A DNA stretch of 64,000 nt. It comes from Arenimonas oryziterrae DSM 21050 = YC6267. GTDB taxonomy: Bacteria > Pseudomonadota > Gammaproteobacteria > Xanthomonadales > Xanthomonadaceae. This document shows, one piece after another, positions 11,451-19,186 of this stretch. How positions within the stretch are numbered: the stretch's first letter is position 1; every line of letters starts with the position of its first letter. The DNA is taken from assembly GCF_000420545.1 (NCBI RefSeq), contig NZ_ATVD01000001.1:124001-188000 (forward strand). Direction: 5' to 3'. The translations under genes and the position numbers were made by a program. The notes under the pieces were generated by a model. The model saw nothing but the letters and a program-made list of their open reading frames with translations. It made no database searches and had not been told where the DNA came from.

Positions 11451-12740
11451 CTACAGGTCGGACAGGCGCGACTTGAGCATCTCCAAACCCAACGCGGCCG
11501 CGGCACCGGGCGAGACCCGCGCGGCCAGGCTGGCTTCGGGATCGGCACCGTGCTGCGGCAACGGCTGTTCAGCCGCCTGCTTGTAGGCCTCGCGGAAGGG
11601 CAGGCCCTGCCCCGCCAGCTCGATCGCACGATCGGTCGCGTACATGCCGTCGTCGATCGCCGCGCGCATCTTGTCGGCGCGCCATTCCATGCGGGCCAGC
11701 AAGGGCGGCACCAGGGCCAACGCCGCCAGGCCGTGGCCGAACGCGTGGATCAGCGAGCCTTTGCTGTACTGCAGATCGCGGTGATAGCCCGAGGGCAGCG
11801 ACAACAGGTGTTCGATCTCGCTGCGCGCGGCGGCCACGGGCGCGTAGCTCGCACGCAGGAGCTCAACGACATCGGGATTGCGCTTGTTGGGCATCAATGA
11901 ACTGCCGGTGGTGTATTCGGCAGGCAGTCCGACGAAACCGAATTCCCCGGTCGTGAACAGGGACAGGTCCCAGGCCAGACGACGCAGGTCGAGCATCGCC
12001 GCACCGAGGGCGTCGATCGCCGCGATCTCGAACTTGCCGCGCGAGAGCTGGGCGTAGATCGGATTGAGCTGCACGCGCGCGAAACCCAGCGCCTGCGTCG
12101 TGTGTTCGCGATCGAGCGGCAGGCTCACGCCATAACCGGCGGCCGTACCCAAGGGATTGGCGTCGATCCAGTCCAGCGCCTGGCGCGCGCGCAGGGCATT
12201 GTCGATGAAGGCTTCGGCGTAACCGGCCTGCCACATCGCGGTCGAGGACACCATCGCGCGCTGCAGATGCGTGTAGCCCGGCATCGGCAGGGCCGGATCG
12301 GAATCCGCGCGAGCCAGGCACACCGCCGCGATGTCGCGGCAGATCGCGTGCACCTGCTGCAAACGATTCTTCAGCCACAGCCGCGAGGCCACCAGCACCT
12401 GGTCGTTGCGGCTGCGACCGGTGTGGATCTTGCGGCCGGTGTCGCCCAGGCGCTCGGTCAGGCGCGCTTCGATCGCAGAATGTCCGTCTTCGTAGCGGTC
12501 GTCGAGCACGAATCGGCCGTCGGCAACATCCGCCGCCAGGACATCGAGTTCGCGCAGCAGGTCGGCGGTTTCCTGCGCGGAAAGCAGCCCGATGCGTCCC
12601 AGTCCTTCGGCATGCGCCTTGCTCGCCTCGATGTCGTAAGGCAGCAGTTCGCGATCGAGCAGCACGTCGCTGCCGGCCAGGAAGGCCATGATCTGGGCGT
12701 CCACGCGCACGCCGTCCTTCTGCCAGAGCAGGTCGCTCAT
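11451..12740 (-). CDS. argH: ArgH, argininosuccinate lyase
   Basis: Last step of arginine synthesis, argininosuccinate to arginine and fumarate. 429 aa. The fumarase-superfamily signature [12 protein letters not shown] holds the catalytic Ser; [18 protein letters not shown] and the catalytic-His region are present. The ATG at 12740 overlaps the argC stop (ATGA). It is the last gene of the arg operon, ahead of a bidirectional terminator. Confidence 0.96.
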
Positions 12741-13681
12741 GGTGATATCCCCGTCAGTTCCGGCAGCCCGAAGGCCAGGTTGAGATTCTGCAGCGCCTGC
12801 GTCGCCGCGCCCTTGAGCAGATTGTCCAGCGTCGCCACCACGACCAGGCGCTGGCCGTCCTCGGACAGCGTGAACCCGCCGATGTCGACGTGATGGCGTC
12901 CCGCGATGCGGCTCACCCAGGGCGCCTCCTCGAGTACGCGCACGAGCGGTTCGGATGCATAGAACTCGCGATACCAAGCCAGGACCGTCTCGCGCGTCGT
13001 CGTCTGCGACAGATGCAGGTTCACGGTCATCGTGATGCCGCGAAAATGCGCGGCGACATGCGGCATGAATTCGACCGGATGCCGCAACTGCCGGCTGACC
13101 TCGCGCTCATGCACATGTCCGGTCAGGGCATAGGGCATGAGGTTGTCGCGCAGTTTTTCCGGATCGTTCTTGTCCGACGTGGCCGTGCCCGCGCCCGAAT
13201 AGCCGGACACGCCGAAACACTGGGCCGGCCCCGCGAGCTGCGCCAGCATCGGCGCGATCGCCAGCTGCATCGCCGTGGCATAGCAGCCGGGGTTGCTGAT
13301 GCGTCGGTGACCGGGCGCCTGCGCGCGGGTCAGTTCGGGCAAGCCGTAGTACCAGTCGTCGTCGAACCGATAGTCGGCCGACAGGTCGAGCAGCACGGTG
13401 TTCGGTGCGGCGAGCGCCGTGGCCTCGGCGAATTCGGCGGCCTTGCCGTTTGGCAGGGCGAGCACGAGGGCATCGGCATCGGCGGCCGCAGCGTCCTGCG
13501 GTCCGAACGAGACATAGCTCATATCGCCCGAATACCCGTCCTCATGCTCGGCAAGGCGCTGGCCCACGCGTTCGCGCGAAGACACGAAGGCGAGCTCGAA
13601 TTGCGGATGTGCGCCGATGAGCCGGATCAGCTCGCTGCCGACATACCCCCGCGCGCCGACAAGGCCGATGCGCAGGCTCAT
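12737..13681 (-). CDS. argC: ArgC, N-acetyl-gamma-glutamyl-phosphate reductase
   Basis: NADPH-dependent reduction of N-acetylglutamyl phosphate to the semialdehyde. 314 aa. The Rossmann start is [18 protein letters not shown], and the catalytic Cys is in [25 protein letters not shown] and HVHEREVSR match the family. The start at 13681 gives an ATGA overlap with the upstream acetyltransferase gene. Confidence 0.95.
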
Positions 13682-14292
13682 GCCGGCGTCGCCGGTTCGT
13701 CGAGCTTGTATTGCAGATGCTTGCGCACGGCCGGCCATTCCGAATCGAGGATCGAGAACACCACGGTGTCTCGGCGGGTGCCGTCGGGCATGATCATGTG
13801 ATTGCGCAGCACGCCGTCCTGTTTGGCACCGAGACGGGCGATGGCGTTGCGCGAGCGATGATTGAACCAGCTCGTGCGGAACTCCACGGCGATCGCCCCC
13901 AGCGTCTCGAACGCATGCGCGAGCAGCAGCAGTTTGGCCTCGGTATTGAGCGCCGTGCGCTGCACGCTCGCCGCGTACCAGGTCCAGCCGATCTCGACGC
14001 GACGGTTGTCGGCGTCGATATTGCCGTAGCGGGTCGAGCCGACGACCGCACCCTGCGCGTCCTTGACCACGAAGGCCATCGCCTTGCCGAGCTCGCGCTG
14101 TGCAAGCGCGGTTTCGACATAGGTCTGCGCCTTGTCGGGCGACGGCACGGCGGTGTACCAGAGCTTCCAGAGGTCGCCGTCGGTCGCCGCCACGCCAAGC
14201 GTCTCGACATGCTCGAGCGCAAGCGGCTCAAGGCGGACATGCTGACCGGCCAAGGTCACCGGCTTCACCCAGGGGGAATTGCCTGCAGTCAT
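13678..14292 (-). CDS. GNAT N-acetyltransferase in the arg operon (RimJ-like)
   Basis: A 204-aa GNAT protein of the RimJ/RimL type (COG1670-like): an N-terminal LRLEPL-type strand ([14 protein letters not shown]), a central [20 protein letters not shown] segment and [14 protein letters not shown], where CoA binds. Substrate unknown. As I recall, Xanthomonas arg operons also have an acetyltransferase between argB and argC, so it may be conserved here. It is not needed for the standard pathway, because acetylglutamate synthesis is already in the fused ArgB. Two nt separate it from argB. Confidence 0.82.
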
Positions 14293-14294
14293 CG

Positions 14295-15602
14295 TCAGCC
14301 CTTCAGCGTGGCCGGGCGCGCCCGGCAATGGTCGACAGCGAAGCGGATGTCGTCGAACGATTCCAGTCCGTACCAGAATACATTCCACTTCTCGCCTTTG
14401 TGGCAGCCATCGGCTTCATCGAAATAGAAATCGTTGATGGCATTGTCGGCGCGCGAGCGCCAGAACAGACGCTCGACCTCGTGGCGCATGACCTGCCAGG
14501 CGGCGCGACCGAGGCCTTCGCCCTGGGCATCCTCGCTGACCGCGAACTTGTCCAGGTGAGGAATACCCTCCTCCAGCGTGAGGATCAGCGCGGCGCGGTA
14601 GTGCTCGCTGTAGTAGATGCGATAGGGCTGGGTGGTCTCGAAATAGTCGAGCTTGAGCTTGCGCCCGAATCCGGACTCGACCAGGGTTTGCAGGCGATCG
14701 CGATCCACCTGCGACCAGTCCGTCGCGCACAGGATCTTCTCGCCACGACGCACGAGGGTGCCGGAGCCGCGGTGGGTAAACAATTCCTTCGCCAGCTCGT
14801 CGGGCTTGGTGATCGACACCGACGACGACGGCGGCAACGCCATCAGCAGATCGTGGATCTGTTCGATCTTCACGCGCATGCCCGAATGCAGCCAGTCCTG
14901 CTGCATCAGTTCCTCGTATTCGGTGCTGAGGTTGATCGAGTCGATGAGGCGGCCGTCGCCATCGAGCAGGCCGCCGGTACCGGTCAGGAACACGATCTTG
15001 TAGGGCTGCAGCTCCTTGACCAGGTCGTTCGCGGCCCAGTCGGCATTGATATTGAGGATCTGCCCGCTCGCGGTTTCGCCCATGGACGCGATGACCGGGA
15101 TGGACCCGTTCTTGATCGCGGCGTGGATGGCTTCGGTATGCACGGCATTGACCTTCCCGACCAGTCCGTATTTCTTGCGATTGAGAAACACCGATTCGAA
15201 CACGCCGCCGATGACCGAGGTCGCGCGCACGCCATCTTCAACGAGGGCGTCAACGAGACGACGGTTCTGCTGCTGGAATACGCGGCGCACGACCGCCAGG
15301 CCTTCGGGCGAAGTGACGCGCAGGCCGTCGGCGACCTGTTTCTCGATGCCGGCAGCCTGCATTTCCTCGTCGAGCTGCGGGCCGGCGCCGTGCACGACGA
15401 TCGGCGTCAGACCGACCTGCTGCAGGAACCCAAGCGAGGACACCAGCGCGTCGAGCTCGTCGCGCAGGATCGCGCCGCCGACCTTGACCACGGCGAAGCG
15501 CGCGGCGTCCAGCTGCGAGAAGCGCTTGAGGTATTGCTGGATCTCCTTGGCACTGGCCATGTTGGAGAGCAGCCGGACGATGGTGGTGCGGGTGTCGTTC
15601 AT
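14295..15602 (-). CDS. argB: Bifunctional N-acetylglutamate synthase/kinase (NAGS-K)
   Basis: A 435-aa fusion that makes N-acetylglutamate from acetyl-CoA and glutamate and then phosphorylates it. Residues ~25-280 are an amino-acid kinase domain ([37 protein letters not shown]). Residues ~290-435 are a GNAT domain of the vertebrate-NAGS type (YLDKFAV-like [33 protein letters not shown]). This arrangement is known from Xanthomonas and mycobacterial/animal-like NAGS. The ATG at 15602 gives the family N-terminus; it follows argE' by 4 nt. Confidence 0.93.
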
Positions 15603-15606
15603 GGCA

Positions 15607-16689
15607 TCAGCCGAAAATGCGTTGATAGGTGGCCGCCACGGCGGCGAGCTGGTCGAGCGCGACCCACTCGTCGGCGGAATGCGCTTGCGCGATGTCGCCC
15701 GGGCCATAGACAAGCGCGGTCAGGCCAGCGGCAGAAAACAGCGAAGCCTCGGTCCAGAAGTCGACGGCGTTGCCAATCGGCAGGCCAAGCGAATCGGCGA
15801 GGTCGCGGGCCTCGAGGCGACGGTTTTCCGCGTTCGCCACATCGCCCGAGGGCAAGGGCGGACCCCGGAAGGTTTCCTCGTACTCGGCCAGCGCGGCCAG
15901 GTCGGCGAAGCCGCGAAAATTCGCGTGCAGGGTTTCGAAATCCTGCGATGGCAGCGGCCGGAAGCCGAAGCGAACCTCGGCCGAGGGCGCGATCATGTTC
16001 GCCTTGATGCCGCCTTCGACGCGACCGATATTGAAACGCAGACCGGTCAGTCCGCCGAAACGCTGATGCGACAGCGCGCCGACATGATCGAGCGCCATGC
16101 CACCCCAACGCATCGCCTGATGCAGGGCGCTCAGCTCCATCGCATTCGCGTTCGATGCGTGACCGGCCTGGCCCTTGAACGCCATGCGCACGGAAACGAT
16201 GCCGCGATGGGCGAGCACCGCTTCGGCCATCGTCGGCTCGGCCACGATAACCTCACGAAAGCCATGATCGGTCTTGAGGAACCCAGGAATGCAGCGCGCG
16301 TCGTTGGCCTCTTCGTCCGTACTGAACAGGAAGGCCGCCGGACCCGTCGTCGCTTCCGCCGCGGCGAGCAGGCAGGCCGCGGCCCCTTTGATGTCGCAGG
16401 CGCCCAGGCCGATCGCACGATCGCCCGTCACCCGCAATTTCAGCGGATCCGCCGTCCACGCCGGCGAACTCGGCACGGTGTCCAGATGCACGTTGAACAG
16501 CCTCGGTGAGTCCCCCCGCACGGCCAGCAGGGACACGGCGCCGGCGCCGTAGTCGACCACGTCGATGCGGAAGCCCGGCAGGCTGGCGCGCAGATAGTCG
16601 AAAATACCGCCGGTGCCGATCGCGCGCGGCGGATTGCGGGTGTCGAATCCGACGAGGGCTTCGAGGTGCTTGAGGACAGGGTTCAACAT
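15607..16689 (-). CDS. ArgE', N-acetyl-L-citrulline deacetylase
   Basis: M20-family zinc amidohydrolase, 360 aa. It has the metal ligand segment [19 protein letters not shown] with the bridging Asp, and STDEEAND with the catalytic Glu. In Xanthomonas the homologue removes acetate from N-acetylcitrulline rather than N-acetylornithine; here it sits between argG and argB in an operon containing argF', so the same substrate is inferred. The 16689 ATG was chosen over a GTG-type extension because it begins the family N-terminus. Confidence 0.9.
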
Positions 16690-16697
16690 GACATTCC

Positions 16698-17894
16698 TTA
16701 CCGGTTGACCTCGGCCCACAAGGTGCTGCTCATGCCGTACAGGCGGATGAAACCTTCCGCCTCCGCCACGCCCCAGTCTGCCGATTGCGCATAGGTCGCG
16801 CCCTTGGCATTGAGAATATGCGGCGACGACACAGCGACGGCCTGGACGCTGCCGCCCTGCGATTCCAGCGTGACTTCGCCATTGACCTTGCGCTGGCTGG
16901 AGGCCAGGAAGGCTTCCAGATCTGACTTCAACGGATCGTGGTAGAAGCCTTCATAGACCAGCTCGACCCACTGCTTGGCGACGGCGGGCTTGAAGCGGTT
17001 CTGTGCCTTGGTCAGCACGGTTTCCTCGAGCGCGCGATGCGCCGCGAGCAGCGAGACCAGACCCGGCGCCTCGAAAATGATGCGGCCCTTGAGACCGATC
17101 GTCGTATCGCCGGTATACATGCCGCGGCCTACGCCGTAGCGGGCGAACAGCTGATTGAGTCTGGCCAGCATGAGATGACCGGGCAGGCGCTCGCCATCGA
17201 GCGATACCGCTTCGCCGTTCTCGAAACCGATCTTCACCTGCAAGGCTTGCGTCGGCCACTCGGCACGCGGCGCGCACCAGCCGCGTGCCCCCTCGCCCGG
17301 CGCCTGCCAACGATCGATCTCGCCGCCGGACATGGTCAGGCCGAGCAGGTTCTCGTTGATCGTGTAGGCCTTCTGCTTGGCGCGCACGCCGAAACCGCGT
17401 TCTTCGAGGTATTGCTGCTCGTAGGCGCGCGTCTGCGTGTGTTCCTTCTGGATTTCGCGGATCGGCGCGACGATCGTGTAGTCGCCGAGCGCCTTGACGG
17501 CGAGATCGAAGCGCACCTGGTCGTTGCCCATGCCGGTGCAGCCGTGCGCGATGAGCTTCGTTCCCAGTTCCCGGCAGCGTGCGATCGCCGCTTCGACGAT
17601 GAGATAGCGATCCGACACCAGCAAGGGATACTGCCCCTGGTAGCCCTCGCCCGCCCAGACGAAGGGCTTGACGAAACCGGCCCAGATCGCCGGCCCGCCG
17701 TCGACGGTCACGTGCGAGGCGACGCCCAGCTCTGCGGCCCGCTGCTCGATGAAAGCGCGCTCCTCGGCATCGACGCCGCCGGTGTCGGCGAACACCGTAT
17801 GCACGGCATACCCGCGTTCCTGCAGGTAAGGCACGCAGAAGCTGGTGTCGAGGCCGCCGGAGAAGGCGAGGACGATGTCTTTCTTGTCGGTCAT
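16698..17894 (-). CDS. argG: ArgG, argininosuccinate synthase
   Basis: ATP-dependent condensation of citrulline and aspartate. 398 aa. N-terminal PP-loop [29 protein letters not shown] and [12 protein letters not shown] fit the divergent Xanthomonas-type ArgG. It lies between argF' and argE' in the operon. The gap to argF' holds a REP-like hairpin. Confidence 0.95.
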
Positions 17895-17960: not shown

Positions 17961-18965
17961 CTACTGATTGGCCAATGCCGCCATGATCGCCTTCTGCACA
18001 TGCAGGCGGTTCTCCGCTTCCTCGATGGCGATACAGGCCGGCGAATCCATGACGGCGTCGGTCGCCTTGATATTCCTTCGCAGCGGCAGGCAATGGCTGA
18101 AGACGCCGCTGTTGGTGAGAGCCATCTTGGCTTCGTCGACGATGAAGTGTTTGTACTGGTCGCGGATCGGCTTTTCCTGCTCCCAGTTGCCGAAATACGG
18201 CAGCGCGCCCCAGCTCTTGGCGTAGACGACGTCGGCGCCGGCGTAGGCGCTCGCAATATCGTGGCTGACCTGCAGCGAGCCGCCGCTTTCGGCGACGTTC
18301 TGTTCCGCCCAGCCCATGTAGCGTTCGTCGAGGATGTAGTCGGGCGTCGGGCACAGCAGGGTCACGTCCATGCCCATCCGCGTGGCGATGGTCAGCGCCG
18401 AATTCGCCACGGCGGTGTTCAGGGCCTTCGGATGATAGGTCCACGTGAGCACGTATTTCTTGCCGCGCAGATCGCTCGTGCCAAATTTTTCCTGCAAGGC
18501 GAGGATGTGCGCGAGCTCCTGGCAAGGATGGGTGATGGTCTCGAGATTGATGACCGGCACCGTCGAATATTTCGCGAAACCACGCAGCACCTGGTCCTCG
18601 CGATCAAACGACCAGTCCTGGAATTTCGGAAACGCGCGCACGGCGATCAGGTCCACGTAGCGCGACAGCACCCGGGCGACCTCGGCGATATGTTCCTCGG
18701 TCTCGCCATCCATGACCGAACCGAGCTTGAACTCGATCGGCCAGGCATCCTTGCCCGGCTGCAGCACGACCGCATGGCCACCGAGCTGGAACGCGCCGAG
18801 CTCGAAACTCGTGCGCGTCCGCAGCGACGGATTGAAGAACACCAGGGCGATGCTCTTGCCCTTGAGCTGATCGCCGGCCTTGCTGCGCTTGAACGCCGCG
18901 GCCTGCGCCAGCAGCGCGTCGAGCTCGGAGCGGGACCAGTCCTGGGTGTTGAGGAAGTGCTTCAT
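17961..18965 (-). CDS. argF': ArgF', N-acetylornithine carbamoyltransferase
   Basis: Transfers the carbamoyl group to N-acetylornithine, giving N-acetylcitrulline. 334 aa. Carbamoyl-phosphate loop FFNPSLRTRTSFE, the AOTCase-specific LQPGKDAWPIEF loop in place of the ornithine enzyme's, HPCQELAHI, and HCLPLRRNIKATD with the lysine that is carboxylated in the Xanthomonas enzyme. First structural gene of the operon; preceded by a leader ORF and a terminator hairpin that end only 27 nt before its ATG. Confidence 0.95.
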   Translation of the reverse strand: MKHFLNTQDWSRSELDALLAQAAAFKRSKAGDQLKGKSIALVFFNPSLRTRTSFELGAFQLGGHAVVLQPGKDAWPIEFKLGSVMDGETEEHIAEVARVLSRYVDLIAVRAFPKFQDWSFDREDQVLRGFAKYSTVPVINLETITHPCQELAHILALQEKFGTSDLRGKKYVLTWTYHPKALNTAVANSALTIATRMGMDVTLLCPTPDYILDERYMGWAEQNVAESGGSLQVSHDIASAYAGADVVYAKSWGALPYFGNWEQEKPIRDQYKHFIVDEAKMALTNSGVFSHCLPLRRNIKATDAVMDSPACIAIEEAENRLHVQKAIMAALANQ

Positions 18966-18991
18966 TGGGAATTCCTGAGGATAGAAAGCAA

Positions 18992-19070
18992 AAAAGCCCA
19001 GCGCGAGGCTGGGCTTTTCCGGTGTACGCGTGATGACGTCCGGTTACCCAGCTGGCGTGTGGGGTTCCGG
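18992..19070 (-). promoter_or_regulatory. Putative arginine attenuator (1:2, 2:3 and 3:4 hairpins)
   Basis: Four pairing segments on the minus strand. Segments 3 (19018-19008, AAAAGCCCAGC) and 4 (19002-18992, GCTGGGCTTTT) form an 11-bp terminator with loop CTCGC followed by a T-run. Segment 2 (19052-19046, GCTGGGT, last two leader codons) repeats the sequence of segment 4 and can pair with GCCCAGC of segment 3, making an antiterminator. Segment 1 (19070-19062, CCGG..ACCC) pairs with GGGT..CCGG (19049-19040) around the leader stop. This matches the logic of ribosome-mediated attenuation. The pairing is seen in the sequence; the function is inferred. Confidence 0.6.
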
Positions 19071-19148
19071 TCGGCGAGCGCGCGAGGTCATGCCTGCCGC
19101 CATGTAGGCAGAGGTCAGGACGTCGGCGTTGGCCAGGAGGGTCTTCAT
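19044..19148 (-). CDS. Candidate arg leader peptide (34 aa)
   Basis: A short ORF starting MKTLLANADVL, with three Arg codons in four (CGC GCT CGC CGA, codons 23-26) just before the hairpin region, and ending in TAA inside segment 2 of the attenuator. No Shine-Dalgarno; the -10 box is 9 nt upstream, so it would be almost leaderless. Its first ten bases (CCCAATGAAG) match those around the argF' start, so it may alternatively be a partial duplication of that start region. Nothing of its length is in databases I can recall. Confidence 0.5.
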   Translation of the reverse strand: MKTLLANADVLTSAYMAAGMTSRARRPEPHTPAG

Positions 19149-19157
19149 TGGGGACGA

Positions 19158-19186
19158 AGTATTGCAGCCTTCGGTTAGAGCCGCAA
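19158..19186 (-). promoter_or_regulatory. Predicted arg operon promoter
   Basis: -35 TTGCGG (19181-19186, 3/6) and -10 AATACT (19158-19163, 4/6) with a 17-nt spacer. It begins inside the last codons of the upstream glycine-zipper gene. Modest matches, but spacing is ideal and the position fits the leader ORF. Confidence 0.5.

Follow-up and report, generated by a model that had tools for sequence, protein, structure and literature searches.

The window (i.e., the whole stretch of 64,000 nucleotides that was analysed) carries on its minus strand an arginine biosynthetic operon, argF'GE'B-GNAT-CH. The argF', argG, argE' and argB genes were assigned by NCBIfam models; they are followed by a GNAT-like ORF and by two further ORFs that we take to be argC and argH. 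The leader region lies between argF' and the next ORF upstream (Table 1). On inspection by eye, no Arg leader was seen upstream of carA in the genome of the window.

Table 1. Features of the leader region and of the downstream operon (coordinates of the window).
Feature	Coordinates	Strand	Basis
Leader region	between ORF 19745-19188 and argF' 18965-17961	-	sequence
-35-like element TTGCGG	19181..19186	-	sequence; position of TTGC kept in relatives
-10-like element AATACT	19158..19163	-	sequence; 17-nt spacer to TTGCGG
Putative transcription start	about 19150	-	2 nt before AUG; position 1 of the Xoo5 model aligns there
Match to Rfam RF02242 (Xoo5)	19033..19150	-	43.9 bits, E 1.4e-6; gathering score 50
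Leader peptide ORF, 34 codons, near-leaderless	ATG 19148 to TAA 19044	-	sequence and frame test
Arg codons 23, 25, 26 (CGC GCT CGC CGA)	19071..19082 (23 CGC, 19082-19080; 25 CGC, 19076-19074; 26 CGA, 19073-19071)	-	Arg in 103/103 distinct loci
Segment 1, CCGGAACCC	19062..19070	-	adjoins last Arg codon; 1:2 in local folds
Leader stop codon TAA	19046-19044	-	sequence
Segment 2, GCTGGGTAACCGG	19040..19052	-	spans stop codon; pairing tests, folds
CCGG pairing with the CCGG of segment 2 within the antiterminator	19019..19022	-	fold of the window's leader
Segment 3, terminator 5' arm AAAAGCCCAGC	19008..19018	-	pairing tests; terminator prediction
Segment 4, terminator 3' arm GCTGGGCTTTT and T-run	18990..19002 (arm 19002-18992)	-	terminator prediction
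argF', N-acetylornithine carbamoyltransferase	17961..18965	-	NF003384, 629.6 bits (cut-off 288)
argG, argininosuccinate synthase	16698..17894	-	NF003385, 777.3 bits (cut-off 603)
argE', acetylornithine deacetylase family	15607..16665	-	NF006439, 578 bits (cut-off 345)
argB, acetylglutamate kinase, 437 aa, long form	14295..15608	-	NF003386, 714.4 bits (cut-off 417)
GNAT-like ORF and two further ORFs	11451..14295	-	ORF list; GNAT-like match of 48.7 bits, below the cut-off

The translated sequence of the leader ORF is MKTLLANADVLTSAYMAAGMTSRARRPEPHTPAG. Its codons 33-34 contain GCTGGG (19052-19047), which repeats the 3' arm of the terminator, and a hairpin around its stop is formed by CCGGAACCC (19070-19062) and GGGTAACCGG (19049-19040). 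The terminator reads AAAAGCCCAGC-CTCGC-GCTGGGCTTTT (19018-18992), i.e., a stem of 11 bp with a T-run reaching 18990; the terminator program scores it with 14 pairs, 7 GC. Three pairings are to be considered: (i) 1:2, CCGG and ACCC against GGGT and CCGG; (ii) 2:3, GCTGGGT against GCCCAGC, with an inner closure of CCGG by the CCGG at 19022-19019; (iii) 3:4, i.e., the terminator, which competes with 2:3 for segment 3. The 34-codon ORF with three Arg codons among codons 23-26, the repeated 3' arm and the hairpin around the stop had already been proposed in a first-pass annotation and are all confirmed. Its T-tailed 11-bp stem is found as well, at 26 nt and not 27 nt from the ATG of argF' (18965). 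Its promoter stands in part: TTGCGG-17-AATACT is not called by a sigma-70 consensus scanner (0 found), whereas in 96 of 102 related loci a TTGC lies upstream of the chosen in-frame ATG, with its first base at a distance of 36-39 nt (L090, with no ATG in range, being excluded).

These relatives belong to a set of 107 argF' loci, made of 80 loci fetched with the argF' protein (579 stretches confirmed, the best 80 kept, the leader playing no part in the choice) and of 27 loci obtained with the Xoo5 model (not independent of the leader). The latter come from an Rfam search of 61 genomes: among its 29 loci, argF' is present in 27, that of the window being one of them. L028 and L029, each a second Xoo5 match in its genome, have no argF' and were taken as chance; the ORFs beside them are presumably lepA/lepB and prmC/dxs.

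The conservation in relatives on which the first-pass annotation had staked its reading is observed: the leader is present in all 80 loci fetched by the argF' protein alone (best 80 of 579 stretches), and the core T-S-R-(A/T)-R-R is found upstream, in some frame, in 107/107 loci. The 103 distinct loci have Arg at all three positions, the changes there being synonymous, and M, A, G, M, T, S and P near the Arg codons are nearly fixed too. Degenerate third bases in the core vary freely with few exceptions, e.g., GCC in 100/103 loci at one Ala. CGA serves as the last Arg codon in 102/103 loci, whereas it accounts for 24 of the 1842 Arg codons of argF' in the same loci. When codons -4 to +5 were compared in 2000 random pairs of loci, the synonymous share of codon differences was 81.9% in the leader frame vs. 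4.1% and 1.8% in the other two, which suggests that the ORF is under coding selection and putatively translated. In 103/103 loci, segment 2 follows the last Arg codon at a distance of 17-20 nt; in 12 of them the ORF stops right at the edge of segment 2, which is noncoding there, yet kept. One locus (L030) stands on a contig labelled Rhizobium sp. (MAG), with the same leader and an argF' 90% identical to the window's; it is probably a mislabelled or mixed bin.

The pairing segments are kept in the same loci. Standard pairs are found in 717 of 721 cells for 2:3 (only 22.6-57.1% when the segments are slid by 1-3) and in 721 of 721 cells for 3:4; across loci, 2 cells in 2:3 and 34 in 3:4 are doubly changed. 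The compensation that the first-pass annotation expected between segments 2, 3 and 4 is present in these matched changes, and the mutually exclusive pairings 2:3 and 3:4 are kept by selection. As for 1:2, pairs are found in 83.3% of 384 cells (48 sequences). Its doubly changed cells (6) and its covariation score are each equalled in 1 of 500 shuffles, its pairs with a double change in 115 of 500 and its further pair types in 59 of 500. Segment 1 is divergent in 13 loci; in 6 of these, 1:2 is more stable with the locus's own segments than in either swapped combination.

In folds of local domains, 1:2 and 2:3 are each formed in 103/103 loci; the control by shuffling of segment 3 is of little power, 2:3 still being formed in 460 of 1030 such folds. 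Minimum-energy folds of the whole leader were computed for the 103 loci with the ribosome at several positions, without or with segment 4. Up to segment 3, the pairing 2:3 is found in 59/103 loci when the A site holds the last Arg codon, in 56/103 with the ribosome at the Arg before last, in 42/103 at the first Arg and in 44/103 without ribosome (1:2 being found in 26/103 in this last case). With the ribosome at the stop it is found in 0/103, by construction, segment 2 being masked. The ribosome-free fold of the window's own leader contains 2:3 and lacks 1:2. When segment 4 is included, the terminator forms in 94 to 102 of the 103 loci at all ribosome positions tried, and is retained in 94/103 despite a stalled ribosome. 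The alternative folds that the first-pass annotation had called for are obtained locally, whereas those of the whole leader are mixed (2:3 in 59 loci with the ribosome vs. 44 without) and seem to back the switch only partly; the switch would hence have to be kinetic, i.e., governed by the order of synthesis. Energy folding by itself is judged too weak to carry the case for an attenuator.

Leaders with other peptides were looked for in 46 genomes of families f3 to f10 having argF' and no strong match to the model R1; 45 loci were kept after L200 (contig edge) was dropped. An ORF with an Arg cluster precedes argF' in 40 of them (39 clear by eye, L229 doubtful; in L218, where the script had taken another ORF, the leader was read by eye). 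L189 alone has the MTSRARR core, and the others carry different peptides, e.g., RRRDRRP, RRRSRRP, RRPQRP, RRARRTRRP, RRRRR and RRNRRR. The script counts 5 or more Arg within 8 codons in 21/45 loci vs. 54/1800 shuffles, and 4 or more in 31/45 vs. 285/1800. A terminator is present in 41/45 loci, including all 40 with a leader. In 22 of these 41 loci vs. 28 of 820 shuffles, a segment is able to pair with the terminator 5' arm through 5 or more GC pairs; no such complementary run was found in 11 of the 41. In L203, L217 and L223, segment 2 is GCC(A/G)GGTT and segment 3 AACCTGG(T/C), i.e., a matched change; several loci read segment 2 in another frame (GGC TGG GTN, with peptides ending in GWV). In L204, the partner of CTCTTTGG is, by eye, CCAAAGAG; this stretch, from the loop and 3' arm of the terminator, takes the place of the 5' arm. 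Three further loci (L222, L230, L231) have a C-terminus and a terminator like those of L204 and seem to use the same antiterminator variant. No Arg-cluster leader was found before argF' in 5/45 loci, namely L192 (f5), L202, L224, L227 and L228 (genus g19), and four of these five are also without terminator by script. Since other g19 loci (L201, L219) have a leader, it would have been lost or moved in the g19 loci concerned.

At the scale of the order, the model R1 matches 173 of 299 genomes at E 1e-3; nine of these matches (E 1e-4 to 1e-3; f4, f7, f9, f11; counted by eye) are probably due to chance, and 164/299 genomes are left. By comparison, argF' is found at 1e-80 in 259/299. Over 369 genomes of the class, R1 gives 6 matches at 1e-4, i.e., five strong ones, all from this order, and a weak one; the model being blind to leaders with an unrelated peptide, absence outside the order concerns this core only. 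In 20 genomes searched again with R1, 16/16 strong matches precede argF' (13 by the fetched locus; L117, L120 and L124 by coordinates). The same search gave 21 weak matches (25-31 bits), which were rejected; 14 of them were examined as loci and none has argF'. In family f12, the core is present in 20/20 loci fetched (chosen by R1).

The usage of Arg codons in the leaders differs from that of argF'. In the core of the 103 loci, 308/309 are CGU, CGC or CGA vs. 1581/1842 in argF' (p 1e-17). In the clusters of the other families (44 of the 45 loci, including those without a true leader), these codons make up 174/186 vs. 541/827 in argF' of the same genomes (p 7e-17), CGA amounting to 54/186 vs. 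66/827 (p 4e-13); all these p-values assume independent codons, which those of related genomes are not. The genome of the window has one tRNA-Arg gene each for ACG, CCG, TCT and CCT, among 47 tRNA matches, and the tRNA-Arg with anticodon ACG (read as ICG) decodes CGU, CGC and CGA. The leader Arg codons being nearly all read by this one tRNA, tRNA charging is pointed to as the signal. It is to be noted that CGC also represents 76.7% of the Arg codons in argF', and that the tRNA reading it comes from a single gene. The arginine repressor ArgR (Arg_repressor, PF01316) was not found in the genome of the window and was found in 2 of the 61 genomes. The only ArgR-like matches are those of G046 and G055, both without argF' match at 1e-80; ArgR and the leader may be control systems that exclude each other (n=2).

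Coding frame, Arg codons, spacing, 2:3 and 3:4 pairing and terminator are all conserved in sequence, and on this ground the leader is in all likelihood a ribosome-mediated transcription attenuator, which would sense charged tRNA-Arg(ACG) and control the argF'GE'B-GNAT-CH operon. What we infer beyond this conservation is that the ribosome stalls at low Arg-tRNA, that RNA polymerase reads through, that 1:2 takes part and that there is a response to arginine. Transcription would start about 2 nt before the leader AUG (a start mapped by others in Xanthomonas oryzae) and the ribosome would translate the leader peptide ORF. If charged Arg-tRNA were short, the ribosome would halt at codons 25-26 with its front edge covering segment 1; segment 2 would then pair with segment 3 before segment 4 exists, and RNA polymerase would continue into argF'. 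If charged Arg-tRNA were plentiful, the ribosome would reach the stop and cover segment 2, so that the 3:4 terminator would form; once the ribosome is released, segment 2 would be held in the 1:2 hairpin. A ribosome with a codon in the A site covers about 13 nt ahead. With codon 26 in the A site, just segment 1 would be covered, which would explain the 17-20 nt spacing found in 103/103 loci. The trp/his-type logic put forward in the first-pass annotation is supported, a stall that frees segment 2 for segment 3 being in agreement with the local folds (103/103 loci).

The conserved non-Arg residues of the main lineage are unusual for a pure codon sensor and count against an attenuator. They would be expected if the nascent peptide M-A-x-G-M-T-S-R-A-R-R-P arrested the ribosome in the exit tunnel, arginine or a precursor modulating the arrest and the same RNA switch being moved. 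Arrest inside the exit tunnel that is changed by arginine or a precursor is the mode of action of SpeFL and of the fungal arginine attenuator peptide. In families f1, f2, f3 and f12, the non-Arg core residues are indeed kept while third positions are free. However, the peptides of f4 and f6-f10 differ and the Arg cluster stays; codon identity is kept as well (one tRNA box; CGA), which is not to be expected of a sensor acting through the peptide alone; and a stall upon arginine excess would presumably turn synthesis on at this leader, i.e., the wrong sign. Such an arrest peptide is thus rather improbable as an explanation of the leader. A combination of both is conceivable, and we propose it tentatively, as an outside guess of somewhat better standing, for the lineage with the fixed core (f1, f2, f3, f12; Xanthomonas, Stenotrophomonas, Lysobacter and kin). 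The leader of this lineage might be a hybrid evolved from a codon-only attenuator, in which the nascent M-A-x-G-M-T-S-R-A-R-R-P would help to hold the ribosome at the rare CGA or the following CCG, three Arg codons would replace a longer run, and the leader would serve as the arginine sensor of the operon in place of ArgR.

The attenuator has also to be reconciled with what is reported on Xoo5. The cut-off of the family (50 bits) is reached in 12 of 61 genomes and the window's 43.9 bits fall short of it; judged by place, gene and core, the leader of the window is homologous to Xoo5, with a score below family membership. In X. vasicola (L044), the match amounts to 146.9 bits and position 1 of the model lies 2 nt before the AUG. 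According to Liang et al. 2011 (PMC3039613), the 5' end of the Xoo5 RNA was mapped by RACE in Xanthomonas oryzae, and Xoo5 sits between PXO_00354 and PXO_00353, the latter, downstream, being listed as N-acetylornithine carbamoyltransferase. The RNA is given as 124 nt; Northern blots display bands of ~130 and ~100, both early in growth and later the short one alone (PMC3039613). Because both lengths equal 124, position 1 of the model is taken as the RACE end (PMC3039613, Table 2). The terminated RNA predicted in X. vasicola L044 (4231-4389) has 159 nt; the reported 3' end of Xoo5 falls short of the predicted terminator, which counts against the attenuator. Processing might account for the species observed, or else the true end might differ from the cloned one. 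In the same article, Xoo5 is described as a non-coding sRNA, and the main text contains none of the words arginine, argF and leader. The RNA itself is already known (sRNA-Xoo5, RF02242), and the attenuator explanation is absent from that text (PMC3039613). As a separate observation, its Table 4 lists the argF' (1.7-fold) and argG (3.25-fold) proteins as lowered in the X. oryzae sRNA-Xoo1 deletion, a response of two operon genes to another sRNA. Two other Rfam matches in the window were set aside: SorX over the terminator (18989-19065; 22.3 bits for a cut-off of 46.6), taken as chance, and mir-73, rejected.

Xoo5 could be considered as a trans-acting small RNA whose promoter and terminator merely precede argF', being stable on Northern blots (PMC3039613) and filed as sRNA in Rfam; moreover, attenuator RNAs are able to act in trans, as reported for rnTrpL of S. 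meliloti (PMC7298713). But the ORF is coding by the frame test, 16/16 strong matches of R1 lie before argF', and the reported RNA stops before the terminator that it would need; this explanation is very improbable. A fixed, unregulated terminator lowering the expression of the operon, the ORF being there by chance, would fit the strong terminator and its presence in the full-length folds at every ribosome position tried (94-102 of 103 loci) and is next to untenable given the conserved frame, Arg codons and 2:3 complementarity.

An attenuator would explain how arginine synthesis can be controlled in a group of which 59 of the 61 sampled genomes yielded no ArgR. The leader very probably lets the cell raise this synthesis when charged arginine tRNA runs short. 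It would re-explain a catalogued small RNA, Xoo5, as a coding attenuator. Across the order, the Arg codons and the RNA pairing are kept while the peptide changes. Finally, the codons being nearly confined to one tRNA, the selective charging theory, which bears on codon choice in attenuators (PMC1183508), becomes testable for arginine.

No arginine attenuator before this or any other arginine biosynthetic operon was found in the literature searched, subscription journals being mostly outside its coverage. Arginine and argF have 0 occurrences in the main text of PMC2965389; PMC1262725 gives no RNA element upstream of the arginine operons of Actinobacteria and cites arginine T-boxes elsewhere. 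To the first-pass annotation, no such device was known for arginine synthesis in this lineage; the RNA itself is catalogued as Xoo5.

The trp and his operons are controlled by ribosome-mediated transcription attenuation. The leader studied here resembles their attenuators by (i) a leader ORF with codons for the end product, (ii) alternative hairpins, (iii) a U-tailed terminator and (iv) the control of a biosynthetic operon. It differs from them by the amino acid (arginine), by its near-leaderless ORF and, in the main lineage, by only three Arg codons together with a conserved peptide core. With Xoo5 of Xanthomonas oryzae it shares the place, the core and the downstream N-acetylornithine carbamoyltransferase gene, whereas Xoo5 is described as a non-coding sRNA and the leader of the window scores below the family cut-off. 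Another likeness comes from an alphaproteobacterium, Sinorhizobium meliloti. In its rnTrpL/peTrpL the leader ORF is leaderless and the attenuated RNA is stable, but it is tryptophan synthesis that is controlled (PMC7298713). The nearest described system found is the speF leader of Salmonella, whose upstream ORF of 34 codons (orf34) has consecutive Arg codons, at which pausing senses arginine (PMC6386406). That leader has a different peptide and acts on polyamine synthesis via Rho, RNA structure and RNase G decay (PMC6386406), whereas the device of the window has an intrinsic terminator before arginine synthesis genes.
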